A stretch of DNA of 40,962 nucleotides from a virus, in IMG/VR virus record IMGVR_UViG_3300030117_000349, positions 1-40,962 of that record. The stretch is one strand, 5' to 3'. The notes under the pieces were generated by a model. It was not told the DNA's origin, made no database searches, and worked only from the letters and a program-made list of their open reading frames with translations. A program made the position numbers and the translations under genes. Within the stretch, counting starts at the first letter, position 1. Every line of letters begins with the position of its first letter. Positions 34,441-40,962 of this stretch are shown here, in pieces.

Positions 34441-34886
34441 ACATAGATGAGTTAAGAGAAGAAATAGCCAATGATGAGGGCAAGGTTATGTCCGTGTACC
34501 TTGACCACCTTAACTTACCCACGCTAGGCATCGGTCATTTGATAACTGAATGGGATGAAGAGCATGGTAAACCAGTTGGCACAGAGGTATCTGAAGAAAG
34601 AGTTAACGAGTTGTTTGCAAAAGATATTGAAACAACAATATCAGAGTGCAAAGAGTTATTTGAAAACTTTGATAATCTACCAGATGAAGTACAAAAAATA
34701 TGTGCAAACATGATGTTTAATATGGGCAGGCCTAGATTAAGTGGATTCAAAAAATTTCGTGCGGCGATAGCAAACAACGACTGGCAAGAGTGTGCCGTTC
34801 AGATGGAAGACAGCCGTTGGCACAAACAGGTAACAAACAGAGCGAATCGCCTAATATCAAGAATGAGAGCGGTCGAGGGTACCTAA
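34437..34886 (+). CDS. Endolysin, T4-type lysozyme (GH24)
   Basis: A 149-residue muramidase that cuts the glycan strands of peptidoglycan at the end of infection. The catalytic triad positions match T4 lysozyme exactly in spacing: Glu14 (in NDEGK), Asp23 (in VYLDH) and Thr29 (in LPTLGIGHL), against T4 Glu11, Asp20, Thr26. The C-terminal helices contain VQKICANMMFNMGRPRLSGF, the usual GH24 pattern. No signal peptide or membrane anchor, so it needs the holin. It overlaps the large virion gene at its start and, at its end, the minus-strand gene by 30 bp. Confidence 0.93.
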   Translation: MNIDELREEIANDEGKVMSVYLDHLNLPTLGIGHLITEWDEEHGKPVGTEVSEERVNELFAKDIETTISECKELFENFDNLPDEVQKICANMMFNMGRPRLSGFKKFRAAIANNDWQECAVQMEDSRWHKQVTNRANRLISRMRAVEGT

Positions 34887-35054
34887 TCCCAACGTCTTGA
34901 CGTTACTTGTAATATCATGTTTTTCATATTCTTTATCAACCATTAATCCGATCTGTTGACGTATATTTCTTCGCTCTTTATCGCATATAGCTTTAAGTTT
35001 GTTGTAGGTTAGAACGTCTATTCCTATTGACTTGAACTTTGATGGGTCTGCCAT
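34857..35054 (-). CDS. Ribbon-helix-helix-like regulator (the only minus-strand gene)
   Basis: A 65-residue protein on the opposite strand to everything else. It has a proper ribosome binding site on that strand (GGAGG, 8 nt before its ATG). The layout fits an Arc/MetJ-type DNA-binding protein: a strand (KFKSIGIDVLTYN), helix A (NKLKAICDKERR) and helix B (IRQQIGLMVDKEYEKH). Such proteins act as dimers or higher oligomers on short repeated half-sites. Its position between the late lysis gene and the DNA-metabolism genes suits a control function. A candidate target lies at 35459-35485. The family call rests on pattern only. Confidence 0.65.
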   Translation of the reverse strand: MADPSKFKSIGIDVLTYNKLKAICDKERRNIRQQIGLMVDKEYEKHDITSNVKTLGLGTLDRSHS

Positions 35055-35450: not shown

Positions 35451-35479
35451 TTGACAGCTAGGTTATGTGTGCCTATGTT
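35451..35479 (+). promoter_or_regulatory. Sigma70-like promoter before the recombination/replication operon
   Basis: TTGACA (35451-35456), a perfect -35 hexamer, is followed after 17 bp by TATGTT (35474-35479), a 4-of-6 match to TATAAT. It lies in the 82-bp gap before the gene at 35524 and points into the block of DNA-metabolism genes. It is the best promoter seen in the window. The start of transcription would fall at about 35486. Confidence 0.65.
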
Positions 35480-35485
35480 ATAGGT
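35459..35485 (+). promoter_or_regulatory. Candidate operator over the promoter
   Basis: CCTAT-GTT-ATAGG (35472-35484) is a perfect inverted repeat that covers the -10 element, and TAGGT occurs twice in direct orientation (35459-35463 and 35481-35485), 22 bp, or two helical turns, apart. A protein bound here would block the promoter. The nearby ribbon-helix-helix-like protein (34857-35054) is an obvious candidate, as such proteins bind repeated short half-sites; that link is inferred. Confidence 0.5.
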
Positions 35486-35523
35486 ATCTAGTGTCTATTT
35501 TATATAAAGAGAAAGGAATAATT

Positions 35524-35958
35524 ATGGAATTAGATTTTTTACATATGCCTTTGCAGGATCTATTCAAGTATCGTGAGGACTTGAAGAACCAGATCCAAGC
35601 GTTAAAGGATAAACAAGCTCATCTTAATGATGATCTTGCGATTAGGTTTGGCAACACTGCAAGAAATAAACTTGCAGATGATGGCAAAGATTATGGCTCT
35701 GTAACATTACATGAGCATGGCTATAAAGTTAAGGTTAGCTTGAGGCAAAAAGTTACTTGGGATCAAGAAGGTCTTGCACAGTCTTTAATGGATATGAATG
35801 AAGATGATGCAAGGCACTATGCCAAAATTACTTATGGCATTGATGAGCGTAAGTACAACAACGCACCTCCTGCTATCAAAGCAAAACTACAAGAACACAG
35901 AACTGTAGAATTAACTGGTACATCTGTGGATATTACGGAGGATACTAATGGCTCTTAA
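35524..35958 (+). CDS. Conserved protein preceding Sak4, unknown function
   Basis: A 144-residue protein. I take ATG 35524, with AAAGGA 8 nt upstream, instead of an earlier frame start that would lie inside the promoter. Residues 1-45 form a helical, coiled-coil-like region (DLFKYREDLKNQIQALKDKQ), then a beta part (KDYGSVTLHEHGYKVKVSLR, then QKVTWDQEGLAQ), and HYAKITYGIDERKYNNAPPA. I recall this protein type just upstream of Sak4-like genes in marine phages, which suggests a role in recombination or DNA annealing, but no activity is known to me. It overlaps the next gene by 11 nt. Confidence 0.68.
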   Translation: MELDFLHMPLQDLFKYREDLKNQIQALKDKQAHLNDDLAIRFGNTARNKLADDGKDYGSVTLHEHGYKVKVSLRQKVTWDQEGLAQSLMDMNEDDARHYAKITYGIDERKYNNAPPAIKAKLQEHRTVELTGTSVDITEDTNGS

Positions 35959-36817
35959 GATTATTACTGCTGATGAGAGGTTAGCAGAAAAGCGTGGTCA
36001 TAAGATTGTAGTTTGTGGTCAAAGTGGTGTGGGTAAGACAACTCTTGCCCGCACACTTGATCCAGATACTACTTTATTTATGGACTTGGAAGCTGGTGAT
36101 GCAGCTATTGAAAGATGGCCTATTGACGTTATTAGACCAAAAACTTGGGAAGAATGTAGAGATTTTGCATGTTTCTTAGGTGGTCCTAATCCAGCTCTAA
36201 CACCTGAACAACCATACTCAGTAGTTGAATACGAGAGAGTTTCACAGATGTATGGTGATTCTATTGAGATGATGAAAAAGTATGACAGCATCTTCGTAGA
36301 TAGTATTACTGTAGCAGGTAGATTGTGTTTTCAATATTGTTTAGGACACCCTGATAACAAATCAGATAGAACTGGCAAAATTGATACAAGAGCTGTCTAT
36401 GGTATGCAAGGTCGTGAAATGATGTCATGGCTTACACATCTTCAACATATTAGGTCTAAGAATGTAATCTTTGTTGGCATCTTGGATGAGAAGGTTGATG
36501 ACTATGGTAGAACTTTGTATGAATTACAAATTGAAGGTTCCAAGACTGGTCGTGAACTACCTGGTATTGTAGATGAAGTTATTACTATGGCAGTAATGCC
36601 AAGTGAAGAACATGGTCCTTATAGGGCTTTTGTATGTCAAACACTTAACCAATGGGGTTATCCAGCAAAAGATAGATCTGGTCAATTAGAAGTAATTGAG
36701 GAACCACACCTTGGTAAGCTATTGGCAAAAATTAGTGGTAGGTCAAGCGGAGAAAGGGATTTAAACTTCGTTGACCCTAATGCAATCAAATCTAGCGAAA
36801 AAGGAGATACTAAATGA
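35948..36817 (+). CDS. Sak4-like RecA-fold ATPase (single-strand annealing/recombination)
   Basis: A 289-residue P-loop ATPase: Walker A GQSGVGKT (residues 24-31), Walker B near YDSIFVDSI (about 112-120), and a following VYGMQGREMMSWLTHLQHIR and VIFVGILDEKVDDYG that fit the AAA_24/Sak4 group. Sak4 proteins are compact RecA-like phage proteins that help anneal single strands during recombination and replication and work with an SSB. The next gene is a DUF669-like ssDNA-binding candidate overlapping by 4 nt, the usual partner. The RecA DNA-binding L2 loop cannot be judged by eye. Confidence 0.8.
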   Translation: MALKIITADERLAEKRGHKIVVCGQSGVGKTTLARTLDPDTTLFMDLEAGDAAIERWPIDVIRPKTWEECRDFACFLGGPNPALTPEQPYSVVEYERVSQMYGDSIEMMKKYDSIFVDSITVAGRLCFQYCLGHPDNKSDRTGKIDTRAVYGMQGREMMSWLTHLQHIRSKNVIFVGILDEKVDDYGRTLYELQIEGSKTGRELPGIVDEVITMAVMPSEEHGPYRAFVCQTLNQWGYPAKDRSGQLEVIEEPHLGKLLAKISGRSSGERDLNFVDPNAIKSSEKGDTK

Positions 36818-37407
36818 TTGATTTTAATGAAGTTCCAACTGGTGGTGGCGGTGGAGGAGATTTTGAGTTAATTCCTGCTGGCACTGTAGCTCGTGTTATC
36901 TTAACTATGAAAAGGGGTCCTGAAGTTATCCCTGATTACTCAACACAACCTATGTTTAAGCAAGGTCAAACTGGTACTAAGTGGCTTGAGTGTGAGTTCA
37001 CTGTTGTTGGTGGTAAGTATGATAAACGTAAGTTTTGGCAGAATATCATGGTTGATGGTGGCAAGATTAACCCTGAAAGCGGCATGCCTTGGTGTAAAGA
37101 AATTGGCATCAGAACTTTTAGAGATATTATTAATAGCACTTTTGGTCTTGATCCAAATGACACCTCACCAGAGGCAGCCATGAAGAGAAAGGTCAATGAC
37201 TTAAACGTGCTTGATGGTGCAGAGTTTTGTGTCAAGGTAGCCATTGAAAAAGGTACTAATGGCTATGCAGATAAGAATAAAATGATGGTTGCTCTTGCTG
37301 TTAATAGTAATGAGTACATTGGTTCTGCACAAGCACCTCAGACTAACAATACACAACCTCAACAACCTAATGGTAACAGTCCGTTACCACCTTGGGCTAA
37401 GAAGTAG
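36814..37407 (+). CDS. DUF669-like single-stranded DNA-binding protein
   Basis: A 197-residue protein: a glycine loop (PTGGGGGGDFELIPAGTVAR), an OB-like core (TKWLECEFTVVGGKYDKRKF, then WQNIMVDGG, NVLDGAEFCVKVAIEKG) and an unstructured Asn/Gln/Pro tail. FELIPAG ... W ... GGKYDKRKFWQN is the pattern of DUF669 proteins, which are found next to Sak4 and proposed to be its SSB partner. It ends PPWAKK and therefore lacks the acidic DDDIPF-type tip through which bacterial SSBs recruit partners; a tip of that type occurs on the protein at 39698-39946. Start overlaps Sak4 (ATGA). Confidence 0.72.
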   Translation: MIDFNEVPTGGGGGGDFELIPAGTVARVILTMKRGPEVIPDYSTQPMFKQGQTGTKWLECEFTVVGGKYDKRKFWQNIMVDGGKINPESGMPWCKEIGIRTFRDIINSTFGLDPNDTSPEAAMKRKVNDLNVLDGAEFCVKVAIEKGTNGYADKNKMMVALAVNSNEYIGSAQAPQTNNTQPQQPNGNSPLPPWAKK

Positions 37408-37506
37408 GTTTCTAGGTTTCTAGCGGCAGGACTGCTTTCTCGTCTGCTAGAGTCGGTTTGGGTAGCACCGATGCCGCAAAGCTACCCATTTAACTAGGAA
37501 ACAAAC
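37408..37506 (+). ncRNA. Candidate structured RNA element / mRNA leader between ssDNA-binding gene and helicase
   Basis: These 99 bp hold no gene and, by direct count, 49 are G or C, clearly more than the AT-rich surroundings. Self-complementary parts can pair together: GCGGCA (37423-37428) with TGCCGC (37472-37477); GGAC (37429-37432) with GTCT (37442-37445); TCGGT (37453-37457) with ACCGA (37467-37471); and the loop TGGGTAGC (37459-37466) with GCTACCCA (37481-37488), a perfect 8-bp pseudoknot. An alternative 8-bp pairing (37419-37426 with 37444-37451) competes with the first stem, as in a switch. I match it to no known RNA class. Confidence 0.5.
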
Positions 37507-39189
37507 ATGATTTTAAGACCATACCAAGAAGTAGCAGTAGACGACGCATCAACTGCATTAGATAAACACAAGAATACAATTGTCGTTGCACCAACTGGTG
37601 CAGGCAAAACAATTATGTTATCTGCATTGGTTGGCAAGAGATACAAGGTAGGTAACAAGGTACTTATTCTGCAACATAGAGATGAGTTAGTAAGACAGAA
37701 TAGAACTAAGTTCTCTAAGGTTAATCCTAACATTACGACTAGCATTGTTGATGGATCAGAAAAAGATTGGTCTGGCAATACGATATTTAGCATGGTGCAG
37801 ACATTATCAAGAGAGAATAATTTAAATAACATCAATCACTTTGATTTGGTTGTGGTTGATGAAAGTCATCATGCAGTAGCAGATACATATATGCGTATCA
37901 TTGACAAAGTTAAACAAGCAAATGAATCAGTAGAGATTGTTGGCTTTACTGCAACACCTAATCGTGGTGACAGAAAAGGACTTAAAAAAGTATTCACTAA
38001 CTGTTCACATCAGATTGAGATTAACACATTAATTAGAGAAGGCTTCTTAGTGCCACCTAAAACATACGTCGTTGATGTGGGTGTGCAGAAAGACTTACAA
38101 AATGTTCGCAAAACAGTAATTGATTTTGACATGTCAGAAGTTGAAAAGATTATGAACAAACGTGCCATTAATGAGAAGATTGTTCAAGAATGGCAAGATA
38201 AGTCTAATGAAAGAAAGACAGTTGTTTTTTGCAGCACAATTACTCATGCACAAGATGTTTGCGATGAGTTTAGAAAAAAAGGTATCAGAGCAGAAATTGT
38301 AACTGGTGATACACCAAGCGAACAACGTAAAGAAATACTACATGATTTAGAACATGGTGATGTCCAAGTCGTGGTCAATGTTGCAGTATTAACAGAAGGC
38401 TTTGATGCACCACCAATTAGCTGTATTGTTCTTACAAGACCATGTTCATACAAATCTACAATGGTGCAGATGATTGGTCGTGGTCTGCGAACAATCAGTC
38501 AAGAAGAATATCCTGGAGTAATTAAGAAAGATTGTATCGTCTTGGATTTTGGCACCAGTGTTTTGACACATGGGTCACTTGATGAGGGCGTTGACCTTGA
38601 TGGTGCTCAAGCAAACGTAAATGGAGCAACACCACTAAAAAACTGTCCAGAGTGTCAATCTGAAATTCCATTGTCATCAAGAGAGTGTCCTATCTGTGGA
38701 CATGAGTTTGGCACTCAAGATAAAGAAGTTCTTGATAACTTTACCATGACAGAAGTTGATCTTATTGACAGATCACCATTTAGATGGCTTGACTTGTTTG
38801 AGAATAATAGATGTATGATGGCAAGTGGGTTTAATGGATTTAGTTTAGTTGCACATTTAGATGACCTATCTGTAGCTCTTGTAAAGCGTAATAAAGGGCG
38901 TTTAAGGGTTGTTAGTGTTGGAACTAAGGAGCAAGCAGTTGCGTCTGCTGATGACTTCCTAAGAGGCATAGAAGATGGTGATGGCTCAAAGAAAGGTAAA
39001 AGATGGTTAAATCAAGGTGTGAGTGTAAAGCAAAGAGACGCATTAGCACAATTAGGTCAGTTTGTTAGACCTATGGACTTTAGTTGGAATAAATATAAAG
39101 CAGCCTGCTGGTTAAATTATTTGTGGAATAAAAAAGAAATTGATGCAAAGATTTTAACCTATTACGAAGGAGATGATAATGCAGCGTAG
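37507..39189 (+). CDS. SF2 DNA helicase with C-terminal zinc ribbon
   Basis: A 560-residue helicase. Motifs: Walker A APTGAGKT (28-35), motif II VDESHH (DESH, 118-122), motif III GFTATP (146-151), motif VI QMIGRGLR (321-328). C380, C383, C394 and C397 (CPECQSEI ... CPIC) form a zinc ribbon, followed by about 150 residues not related to the core. This resembles the UvsW/ResIII group that unwinds branched DNA during replication and recombination. The zinc ribbon and tail probably bind DNA. The gene follows the structured RNA segment, has no strong ribosome binding site (AGGAAAC, 37497-37502) and overlaps the next gene. Confidence 0.88.
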   Translation: MILRPYQEVAVDDASTALDKHKNTIVVAPTGAGKTIMLSALVGKRYKVGNKVLILQHRDELVRQNRTKFSKVNPNITTSIVDGSEKDWSGNTIFSMVQTLSRENNLNNINHFDLVVVDESHHAVADTYMRIIDKVKQANESVEIVGFTATPNRGDRKGLKKVFTNCSHQIEINTLIREGFLVPPKTYVVDVGVQKDLQNVRKTVIDFDMSEVEKIMNKRAINEKIVQEWQDKSNERKTVVFCSTITHAQDVCDEFRKKGIRAEIVTGDTPSEQRKEILHDLEHGDVQVVVNVAVLTEGFDAPPISCIVLTRPCSYKSTMVQMIGRGLRTISQEEYPGVIKKDCIVLDFGTSVLTHGSLDEGVDLDGAQANVNGATPLKNCPECQSEIPLSSRECPICGHEFGTQDKEVLDNFTMTEVDLIDRSPFRWLDLFENNRCMMASGFNGFSLVAHLDDLSVALVKRNKGRLRVVSVGTKEQAVASADDFLRGIEDGDGSKKGKRWLNQGVSVKQRDALAQLGQFVRPMDFSWNKYKAACWLNYLWNKKEIDAKILTYYEGDDNAA

Positions 39190-39466
39190 TGAAGCGTTGA
39201 AAAAAGTAGACTTAATCATTAATGGACCAAGAGCTAAATCTCATGGAGATGCCACAGAGACACATACTTATATAGCTCAAATGTGGAATATATTACTGAG
39301 AAAAAAATTAAAAGAGCCTTTAGACATACATGATGTTTATAGGGCTATGATTGGTATTAAACAAATTAGAAATAGTCAGAATCCAAAAGTCGATGACAAC
39401 ATGATCGATATTATTGGATATGCTGCATTAGCTTTGGAGGCAAAAGATGGCAAGAATGGTAATTGA
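39179..39466 (+). CDS. DUF6378-like small protein
   Basis: A 95-residue helical protein. I use ATG 39179 because AAGGAG (39167-39172) is then 6 nt away, not the ATG at 39173, which touches it. The sequence RSEALKKVDLIINGPRAKSH, GDATETHTYIAQMW and the end NMIDIIGYAALALEAKDGK fit the DUF6378 family as I remember it (ExA..LINGDRAK.YGD ... D.AGYAALA), common in phages, with no proven function. It overlaps the helicase by 11 nt and the next gene by 20 nt. Confidence 0.72.
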   Translation: MQRSEALKKVDLIINGPRAKSHGDATETHTYIAQMWNILLRKKLKEPLDIHDVYRAMIGIKQIRNSQNPKVDDNMIDIIGYAALALEAKDGKNGN

Positions 39467-39731
39467 ATATACTATCCAAGAAGAAAACAAAGTTGGTATT
39501 GAAAACTTTAAAGATGGCAAGATGTTTGTTCAGTTTAGTTTTGATGATCACCCAGACGTTACTGCAGGTAAGATGCAAGATGCGTTAGTCAATGTGATGC
39601 ACAAAAATAAAGATTACGTTTTAAGTATAGTCTTCATTGCTAAGTTTGAAGGCGTAACAATGGCAGAGGGTGCTCTGTACAAAGAAGGAGAAGGTAGATG
39701 GATAAACCCACAATCGGAGACGATTCACTAA
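39447..39731 (+). CDS. Small protein of unknown function
   Basis: A 94-residue protein with a strong Shine-Dalgarno (GGAGG, 39436-39440; 6 nt before ATG) inside the previous gene. It reads ARMVIEYTIQEENKVGIENF, then GKMFVQFSFDDHPDVTAGKM, SIVFIAKFEGVTMAEG, and ends in a polar tail. The alternating strand-helix pattern suggests a small alpha/beta fold. No family recognised. It lies in the DNA-metabolism operon, overlapping the next gene by 34 nt. Confidence 0.6.
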   Translation: MARMVIEYTIQEENKVGIENFKDGKMFVQFSFDDHPDVTAGKMQDALVNVMHKNKDYVLSIVFIAKFEGVTMAEGALYKEGEGRWINPQSETIH

Positions 39732-39946
39732 AAAATTTAACTCAATTATTTACAAGAATTGGTTGGGATAAAAAGTTAAGCGAACTAACTGAAGATGAGA
39801 TAGTCGCAACAATATTGATTATGCAATTTTCAAAAAGGATAGATTCAGATGAACAATATACAAAAGACAGACTCGACAAACTACTTCTTGAATATGTCTA
39901 CGAAAAACAAGACGACACAATCGATGAAGACGAAATACCTTTTTGA
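39698..39946 (+). CDS. Small acidic protein with an SSB-type C-terminal tip
   Basis: An 82-residue acidic, helical protein (TIGDDSLKNLTQLFTRIGWD, then KLSELTEDEIVATILIMQFS) that ends DDTIDEDEIPF. The last residues closely match the acidic tip of bacterial SSB (typically D-D-D-I-P-F), which recruits RecO, PriA, Exo I and other repair proteins. The body bears no OB-fold signature, so this is not an SSB. It may be a mimic that competes for these host partners or that supplies the missing tip for the phage ssDNA-binding protein; both ideas are inference. Its last codons are overlapped by the start of the next gene. Confidence 0.6.
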   Translation: MDKPTIGDDSLKNLTQLFTRIGWDKKLSELTEDEIVATILIMQFSKRIDSDEQYTKDRLDKLLLEYVYEKQDDTIDEDEIPF

Positions 39947-40634
39947 AGAAGTTATTGACGAAACTATTGTAGACAAAAATAGAAAAGAGCCTAGACGTAA
40001 ATATTTAGGTGCATCAATGTTAGGAGATAGGTGTGCAAGAAAGATACAGTATATTTATACTGGTTGCGAACCTGATGAAGAAAAGAAGTTTAATGCTAGG
40101 ACTTTGAGGGTGTTTCAGTTAGGACATGAGCTAGAAACAAGTATGGCTGGTTGGATTAGAAATGCAGGATTTGACATAAGAACTATGGATAGTAATGGCG
40201 AACAATTTGGTTTTTCGATAGCAGATGATGAGATCAAAGGACACATAGATGGTGTGATTTGTTCTGGTCCTTTGGATGTCAGTTATCCAATGTTATGGGA
40301 ATGTAAGTCTGCTAATGAGAAAAAGTTTAGAGATTTCAAGATGAAAGGCATAAAAGCTAATCATACTTATGAAGTGCAAGTTGCGTTATATCAAGCATAC
40401 ATGGAGCTAACAGATAATCCTTGTTTGTTTACAGTTATTAACAAAAACACTAGTGAGATATTCTATGAGCTTGTTCCGTTCAATCAAGAGTTAGCACAAT
40501 ATGCCAGTGATAGAGCAGTTGATATATTAAGAGCATCAAAGCAAAATGAAACCTTACCTAGAATAGCACAGAACAGAGATGTATTTGACTGTAAATTTTG
40601 TCAGTTTGCAGACACATGTTGGGAAGATGGTTGA
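39924..40634 (+). CDS. Cas4/RecB-like PD-(D/E)XK nuclease with four-cysteine Fe-S motif
   Basis: A 236-residue nuclease. GHIDG (Asp109) and WECKSA (Glu126, Lys128) form the metal-binding core, and QVALY (Gln152, Tyr156) is the QxxxY motif of the RecB family. Cys37 (GDRC) and Cys223-x2-Cys226-x5-Cys232 (CKFCQFADTC) reproduce the iron-sulfur arrangement of Cas4 and AddB nucleases. Phage members act as exonucleases in recombination and replication. I use ATG 39924; upstream in-frame ATGs (39849, 39888) would overlap the previous gene more, and no ribosome binding site decides. No cas genes are present, so it is not part of a CRISPR system here. Confidence 0.85.
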   Translation: MKTKYLFEEVIDETIVDKNRKEPRRKYLGASMLGDRCARKIQYIYTGCEPDEEKKFNARTLRVFQLGHELETSMAGWIRNAGFDIRTMDSNGEQFGFSIADDEIKGHIDGVICSGPLDVSYPMLWECKSANEKKFRDFKMKGIKANHTYEVQVALYQAYMELTDNPCLFTVINKNTSEIFYELVPFNQELAQYASDRAVDILRASKQNETLPRIAQNRDVFDCKFCQFADTCWEDG

Positions 40635-40680
40635 TGGTGACACAGAAGGTAGCAAAGTGCCACCATCAAGGGGAATGGTA

Positions 40681-40962
40681 ATGAACATTATAAAGTTTGG
40701 CAACAGTAAAAGAACTATGGATGCAAAGGAATTAGTTGAGCTAATTAGTGAGAGAGTTCCTGCAAATGTTCAGATTGATTTACTCAAAGATACATATCCA
40801 CAAGGTGTTGTTAGAGGTGATCAATTTACTATTGGATCGCTTGGTGGAGAGGCAGGTAAATCTCTTAAAATAGACATAAACCCTAGATCACCATACTTTA
40901 TGAAAGGTCAAGATTTTAATGGTGCAGATGGAGTTGGGGGTATTGTTAAAATATTGATGGAA
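40681..40962 (+). CDS. DNA primase (or primase-helicase), N-terminal part
   Basis: The first 94 codons of a gene running off the window. AAGGGGA (40668-40674) lies 6 nt before ATG 40681. The visible part reads TMDAKELVELISERVPANVQ, then GDQFTIGSLGGEAGKSLKID, INPRSPYFMKGQDFNGADGV and GGIVKILME. The GxxGxSLxIxI(N/D)P ... FMKGQDF ... GVGGI(V/I)KI pattern is the N-terminal, non-zinc region of phage primases in my memory; the catalytic Toprim or helicase motifs would be further on. It follows the Cas4-like nuclease, with 46 bp between the two genes. Confidence 0.6.
   Translation, partial: MNIIKFGNSKRTMDAKELVELISERVPANVQIDLLKDTYPQGVVRGDQFTIGSLGGEAGKSLKIDINPRSPYFMKGQDFNGADGVGGIVKILME

Follow-up and report, generated by a model that had tools for sequence, protein, structure and literature searches.

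Gene organization of the locus

The window, which here means the whole 40,962-nt stretch of viral DNA that was analyzed (IMG/VR record IMGVR_UViG_3300030117_000349), encodes in order a PHROG 2480 protein, Sak4, an SSB-like protein, an SF2 helicase, a DUF6378 protein, an unknown ORF, a DUF6511-like protein, and a Cas4-domain exonuclease (table 1). The core of this recombination module is common to the Acidithiobacillus phage AcaML1 (no helicase in the stretch), Azospirillum, and another bacterial contig. DUF6511 is near a Cas4-type gene in all 14 fetched prophage loci, of which one is cut (L136) and one is rearranged with Sak4 and the SSB-like gene on the other strand (L133); Sak4 and an SSB-like gene are also present in 13 of the 14.

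Several minor features were observed in and around the module. The best PHROG families of the DUF6378 protein are labeled phosphofructokinase, a doubtful assignment. Between the DUF6378 and tip genes is a 94-aa ORF (39447-39731) without a convincing family match, and ORFs resembling this one by eye precede the tip gene in L094, L099, L102, and L103. A GGGTAGC...GCTACCC hairpin lies between the SSB-like and helicase genes (37405-37510; folding little better than that of shuffled sequences, z of -1.76, with 11 of 200 shuffles equally good), and no Rfam family matched 36500-40962 at gathering scores. Further upstream, a minus-strand 65-aa ORF (34857-35054) sits amid plus-strand genes and, as an impression from the letters only, possibly encodes a small DNA-binding regulator.

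Table 1. Features of the recombination module in the window, and proteins that occupy the DUF6511 slot in other loci
Feature	Coordinates	Strand	Basis or remark
PHROG 2480 protein, first gene of the conserved module	35467..35958 (start maybe 35512)	+	PHROG match, synteny
Sak4-like recombinase (single-strand annealing protein)	35948..36817	+	phrog_124 E 1.7e-47; AAA_24 E 8e-40
OB-fold SSB-like protein, no tip	36814..37407	+	phrog_2300 E 4e-29; model
PPWAKK, P-x-W tail of SSB-like protein	37387..37404	+	proposed docking site of DUF6511-like hairpin
SF2 DNA helicase with zinc ribbon	37507..39189	+	phrog_16 E 2e-101
DUF6378 protein	39173-39466		Pfam E 4e-19
DUF6511-like helical protein, 82 aa, with SSB-type tip	39698..39946	+	translation, profile searches, AlphaFold2
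DEDEIPF tip codons	39923..39943	+	IPF = 39935-39943; shared from 39924 on with Cas4-type gene, other frame
Cas4-domain exonuclease	39924..40634	+	phrog_1990 E 6e-65
Slot protein without DUF6511 profile match	L220:6426-7061
Slot protein without DUF6511 profile match	L364:4547-4861
Slot protein without DUF6511 profile match	L365:8261-8578

The SSB-like protein is modeled as an OB fold (pLDDT 86.5). Its best structural match in the PDB is PrgE (8s4s_B, E 6e-5, prob 1.00), followed by weaker fold matches to RPA (E 0.014) and bacterial SSBs (E 0.15 and weaker); by sequence, no relative was found in the PDB (best E 0.18). Fold and context point to a putative ssDNA binder. Its translation ends in PPWAKK, and the columns of P192 and W194 within this tail are invariant across 31 aligned viral relatives. 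No classical SSB was found in the record (Pfam PF00436, 0 matches at E ≤ 1), and profile searches likewise reject the tip protein as an SSB itself.

The translation of the tip protein ends in DTIDEDEIPF, directly before a stop codon at 39944-39946. In an AlphaFold2 model based on 36 sequences (mean pLDDT 65.5), helices span residues 10-21, 32-47, and 54-66, and the tail of residues 69-82 is of low confidence. Searches gave no match for its DNA among phage records, no match for the helical fold in the PDB at E ≤ 0.001, no NCBIfam match at E ≤ 0.01 for either it or the SSB-like protein, and, at the protein level, just four matches, all with E of 5-8. Profile matches to the designed coiled coil 8qae (E 8e-6, no single stretch passing alone) and ribosomal uS13 (E 0.04) were judged to be chance, and the remaining matches are weaker. 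Both halves of what the first-pass annotation had described, an SSB-type tip on a helical protein that is not an SSB and an ssDNA-binding candidate of the phage that lacks one, are borne out by the translations, and the DEDEIPF-type end is conserved among relatives of the 82-aa protein.

The tip is conserved in the DUF6511 family

Relatives of the tip protein in IMG/VR number 19 by a single-protein scan and 34, those 19 included, by an alignment. A scan for the neighboring Cas4-type gene was followed up in the best 80 of 388 matches, and in 50 of the 51 loci examined among these, a relative of the tip protein is upstream of the Cas4-type gene (L096 lacks a clear one). Most relatives retain [I/L]PF, while the preceding stretch varies by substitutions and insertions. 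Forms of only 70-71 aa (L094, L095, L097-L103) also end in DDEIPF or EDEIPF, and the relatives in L035 and L066 end in FDPPF.

These proteins are akin to DUF6511. The Pfam profile (PF20121) matches residues 10-37 of the window protein with 20.7 bits (E 6e-4), below its 28-bit cut-off, and we therefore name the protein DUF6511-like. Two relatives exceed the cut-off, L095 (29.3 bits) and L103 (32.1 bits), and in the latter the profile reaches the last residue (11-71 aligned to 14-69 of 69). In a profile-profile comparison, the window subfamily shares a hairpin of 31 columns with eleven DUF6511 proteins (probability 89, E 2.4e-6). The window protein thus has the hairpin and genomic slot in common with PF20121, but differs in its score and in missing the N-terminal CxxC...FCSxxC zinc finger of longer members. 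Most of the genome-borne proteins are longer and have this finger; marine phage forms have none. DUF6511 is present in 14 of 385 genomes of the Azospirillum class (Alphaproteobacteria). In 14 of 16 genome-borne proteins the DUF6511 match extends to the final residue, and 15 of the 16 end exactly in [IVL]PF, the exception being L125 with PLPL.

Across the family, 114 of 134 distinct C-termini end in PF, and 109 in [ILV]PF. None of the control families in the same loci has a PF end (Sak4, 0/134; helicase, 0/93; Cas4-type, 0/134; primase, 0/60; PHROG 2480, 0/108; 0/529 for the five together). Among other ORFs of at least 60 aa in all loci, a background that includes spurious ORFs, the end occurs in 17 of 7,047, nine of them [ILV]PF, and of 212 ORFs (≥40 aa) in the window, it occurs in the tip protein alone. 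Kinship with DUF6511, together with the difference between the family and the five control families, leads us to reject a chance match. The C-terminal tripeptides of 115 distinct tipped relatives are IPF (83), VPF (15), LPF (11), APF (4), PPF (1), and IPY (1). Acidic residues precede the IPF of the window protein; 17 of the 115 have no D or E in the four positions ahead of this tripeptide.

Whether homologues keep the IPF-type end was the check on which the first-pass annotation had hung its reading, and the answer is that the end is prevalent in the family but not universal. Homologues without it end in DIPI (L022-L025), QQDALF (L027-L034), EQSVKK (L079, L086), PLPL (L125), or RRTDQ (L366), and an AcaML1-like group has DDLPW plus an extension. 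Within that group (L104:3444-3965, L226, L236, L238, L279, and L285), the proteins either continue past DDLPW or end differently; L243, close to the group in the tree, ends in DFDDDIPF.

The tip alternates between two proteins

A tip on the SSB-like protein itself goes with the absence of DUF6511 from the locus. All 295 complete SSB-like ORFs yielded 164 distinct C-termini. For 122 of these, DUF6511 is in the locus and none ends in PF; 118 have P-x-W (such as PPWAKK, RPSWAQ, and GPAWLN) and four have a PAPW variant. The 42 distinct C-termini without DUF6511 in the locus, which include those from loci ending before the DUF6511 slot, have PF (21), P-x-W (14), LPWA or LPWG (4), or otherwise (3), with one VPFE end among the 42. 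In a non-redundant set of 89 SSB-like proteins, 12 end in PF, and the fetched locus has DUF6511 in none of them; DUF6511 is present with 66 of the remaining 77, which include loci ending before the slot, and with 64 of the 72 that end in P-x-W. One of the PF-ending proteins, L276, is in the same place as L312 and represents an odd, probably deleted, locus.

An earlier non-redundant set retained 77 of 265 SSB-like ORFs after near-copies were removed, and both states are known for 72. We did not score loci ending before the slot as absences in this set or in the tree below. Four rows have the tip in cis, none with a trans tip, whereas of 68 non-cis rows, 56 have a trans tip and 12 do not (Fisher p 0.0018, relatedness ignored). 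In a tree of 74 rows, built with a stricter cut, without L248, L276, L312, and short rows, and with L220 and L364/L365 marked by hand as trans-tipped, the cis label changes four times, with at least three changes forced by supported branches. An AU test rejects placing the cis rows in one clade (p 0.008), cis there including two LPWA/VPFE ends, and the cis row L249 is on a very long branch. Four independent pairs could be formed, in which the two states are opposite in 2.3 on average, change the same way in 0, and show no difference in 1.7 (median p 0.5). The number of independent pairs is too small for significance, and the contrast draws on three or four lineages.

The cis arrangement is found in phages of several groups. 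The SSB-like proteins of Wolbachia phage WO and a Megaira phage, members of the window's SSB-like family that a tblastn search with the window protein recovered, end in DWVPF, DWLPF, and GDELPF, and the complete records of two WO phages and of the Megaira phage contain no DUF6511; in these three records the tip is in cis, in contrast to the trans arrangement of the window. WO-type contigs (L356-L363) have a DWxPF end, in one case DWVVPF, and no DUF6511 in the locus. Megaira-type contigs (L341-L355) have a DExPF end or, in L346-L350 and L355, LPWA, LPWG, or VPFE; in these loci neither DUF6511 nor Sak4 was found. Forty regions from among the genome matches were fetched. In two genomes of the alphaproteobacterial sample, the SSB-like protein ends in SEANWPF (G027) and GDGNFPF (G278), with DUF6511 absent in both at E 1e-6. 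In G278, the tip is in cis and DUF6511 is missing, while Sak4, the helicase, the Cas4-type gene, and the primase are retained. A prophage SSB-like protein (L312:3073-3882) has no P-x-W end, ends in FMDVPF, and is directly followed by a primase gene; a deletion possibly put the tip in cis in this locus.

Other proteins carry the tip in some loci with neither DUF6511 nor a cis tip. In the DUF6511 slot of L220, a protein without a DUF6511 profile match ends in HDEDIPF, and in L364 and L365 such proteins end in DPNEPF, which is not a hydrophobic-PF end. They have weak similarity to the hairpin (E 9e-5, probability 59 for L220; E 1e-5, probability 82 for L364/L365). Since these replacements combine hairpin similarity with PF, hairpin plus tip appears to be the unit that is retained. 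These three loci account for 3 of the 14 distinct P-x-W C-termini without DUF6511. Also among the 14 are L096 and L244, which are tipless with an intact or nearly intact module, and L307, with a broken module; the rest are from loci that end before the slot or are not resolved. The 12 of 72 rows with neither tip comprise five AcaML1-like rows (L226, L236, L238, L279, and L285), which have an internal DDLPW or an extension, and L028, L305, L301, L250, L244, L096, and L248. L250 appears frameshifted, and L305 reads past the tip (DDIPFSSIGDAI).

A proposed carrier of the SSB interaction tip acting in trans

Bacterial DNA repair and replication rely on the C-terminal tip of SSB as their principal recruiting hub, and this tip has been regarded as belonging to SSB. 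Host proteins that bind it include PriA, RecO, the chi subunit, and exonuclease I. At the level of sequence, the DUF6511-like proteins combine a conserved hairpin, a variable spacer, and an [I/V/L]-P-F at the extreme C-terminus, and are encoded in a module with a tipless SSB-like protein. From this we consider it rather likely that the 82-aa protein, a product of the phage, carries the SSB interaction tip and acts in trans. Its hairpin would attach to the SSB-like protein of the phage on ssDNA, with the conserved P-x-W tail as a possible contact, so that the SSB-like protein and the adaptor would jointly perform the task of a bacterial SSB and its built-in tail. The pair is predicted to bring Sak4 recombinase of the phage and SSB-binding proteins of the host to phage ssDNA; where phage groups were found to lack the small protein, the tip is mostly present in cis on the SSB-like protein. 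The tip of the phage SSB itself seems to have been relocated to the adaptor. Host SSB-binding proteins are proposed as partners because the SSBs of 16 module-carrying genomes all end in IPF (18 of 18; DDEIPF or DDDIPF in 14). Megaira-type loci have the tip while no Sak4 was found in them, so Sak4 cannot be the sole partner and host partners are likely. The suggestion that the protein lures SSB partners to the phage replication site is supported to this extent, and the alternation between cis and trans makes it more specific.

We put forward more tentatively, and at somewhat less than an even chance, a broader reading in which SSB is split in a large set of phages and prophages of proteobacteria, with OB coat and tip as two products joined through P-x-W and hairpin and with repeated switches between cis and trans. 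If true, a split SSB would provide a function for Pfam DUF6511, a domain so far without one, and a detachable tip adaptor would mean that coating and recruiting are separable. This reading names a candidate docking motif (P-x-W) and a set of partners.

The tip is classical; its split from SSB is not. Like the bacterial SSB C-terminus (DDDIPF), that of the window protein is a hydrophobic-Pro-Phe at the extreme end, in the family usually after acidic residues, on a tail modeled with low confidence, but the protein that bears it is separate, helical, and has no OB fold. A study on phage HK620 (PMC5928155) reports that Sak4 annealing and recombineering need the last six residues (NDYPPF) of the HK620 SSB. 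There, as in the window, a Sak4 recombinase is encoded beside an ssDNA-binding protein (SSB-like in the window). However, according to the same study, the HK620 SSB bears its own tail, whereas in the window the SSB-like protein ends in PPWAKK and the tip is in another gene. PrgE of plasmid pCF10 (PMC11137577) is the closest solved fold to the SSB-like protein, although no sequence match was found, and the available text describes neither an acidic tail nor a tip carrier. The first-pass annotation knew of no described phage protein with this arrangement, and in agreement, titles and the beginnings of abstracts in the open-licence PMC literature show no trans, mimicked, or non-SSB tip. DUF6511 is not mentioned in that literature.

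Alternative explanations

The best surviving alternative, which we nonetheless consider unlikely, also has the tip recruiting host SSB partners, but with the adaptor anchored on DNA or on another phage protein such as the Cas4-type nuclease, the helicase, or Sak4. DUF6511 directly precedes the Cas4-type gene, and the CxxC...FCSxxC zinc finger of longer members may bind nucleic acid. However, marine members lack the finger. DUF6511 loci without a helicase gene (L107, L130, L134, L135, and L138) still have the P-x-W tail, and G278 and G027 lack it; neither of these two has DUF6511, but both possess a Cas4-type gene, which is in two pieces in G027.

It is less probable still that the protein is a decoy whose free tip competes for host SSB-binding nucleases or repair proteins and ties them up, the counter-defense role that had been suggested from the sequence alongside luring. 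The tip is the same as the SSB ends of carrier genomes, which fits a decoy. Yet a decoy predicts neither a fixed position within a recombination module nor a tip on the SSB-like protein where the small protein is missing, and for this latter reason the suggestion is not supported.

We regard as slightly more improbable again that the tip serves autoregulation or is a binding motif recognized by a single phage partner in a way that has nothing to do with SSB-binding pockets. Either role would be compatible with the loss of acidic residues in some relatives (17 of 115 with none in the preceding four). Against it stand an exact terminal [ILV]PF identical to host SSB ends and an OB-fold protein bearing the tip in phages without DUF6511.

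Finally, because the tip codons overlap the probable start of the Cas4-type gene (ATG at 39924) in a different frame, the first-pass annotation had cautioned that the overlap might account for IPF, but a by-product of this kind is very improbable, and we reject it: overlap of a Cas4-type ORF with the tip codons is possible in the window and in at most 69 of 113 distinct tipped relatives with a Cas4-type gene nearby (an upper bound), while in the other 44 the tip is outside any possible Cas4-type ORF, and IPF persists despite differences in stop types, spacing, and codons. Across tipped relatives, all four Pro codons are used and Phe is encoded by TTC (58) or TTT (56), indicating that it is the residues that are conserved and not the DNA.
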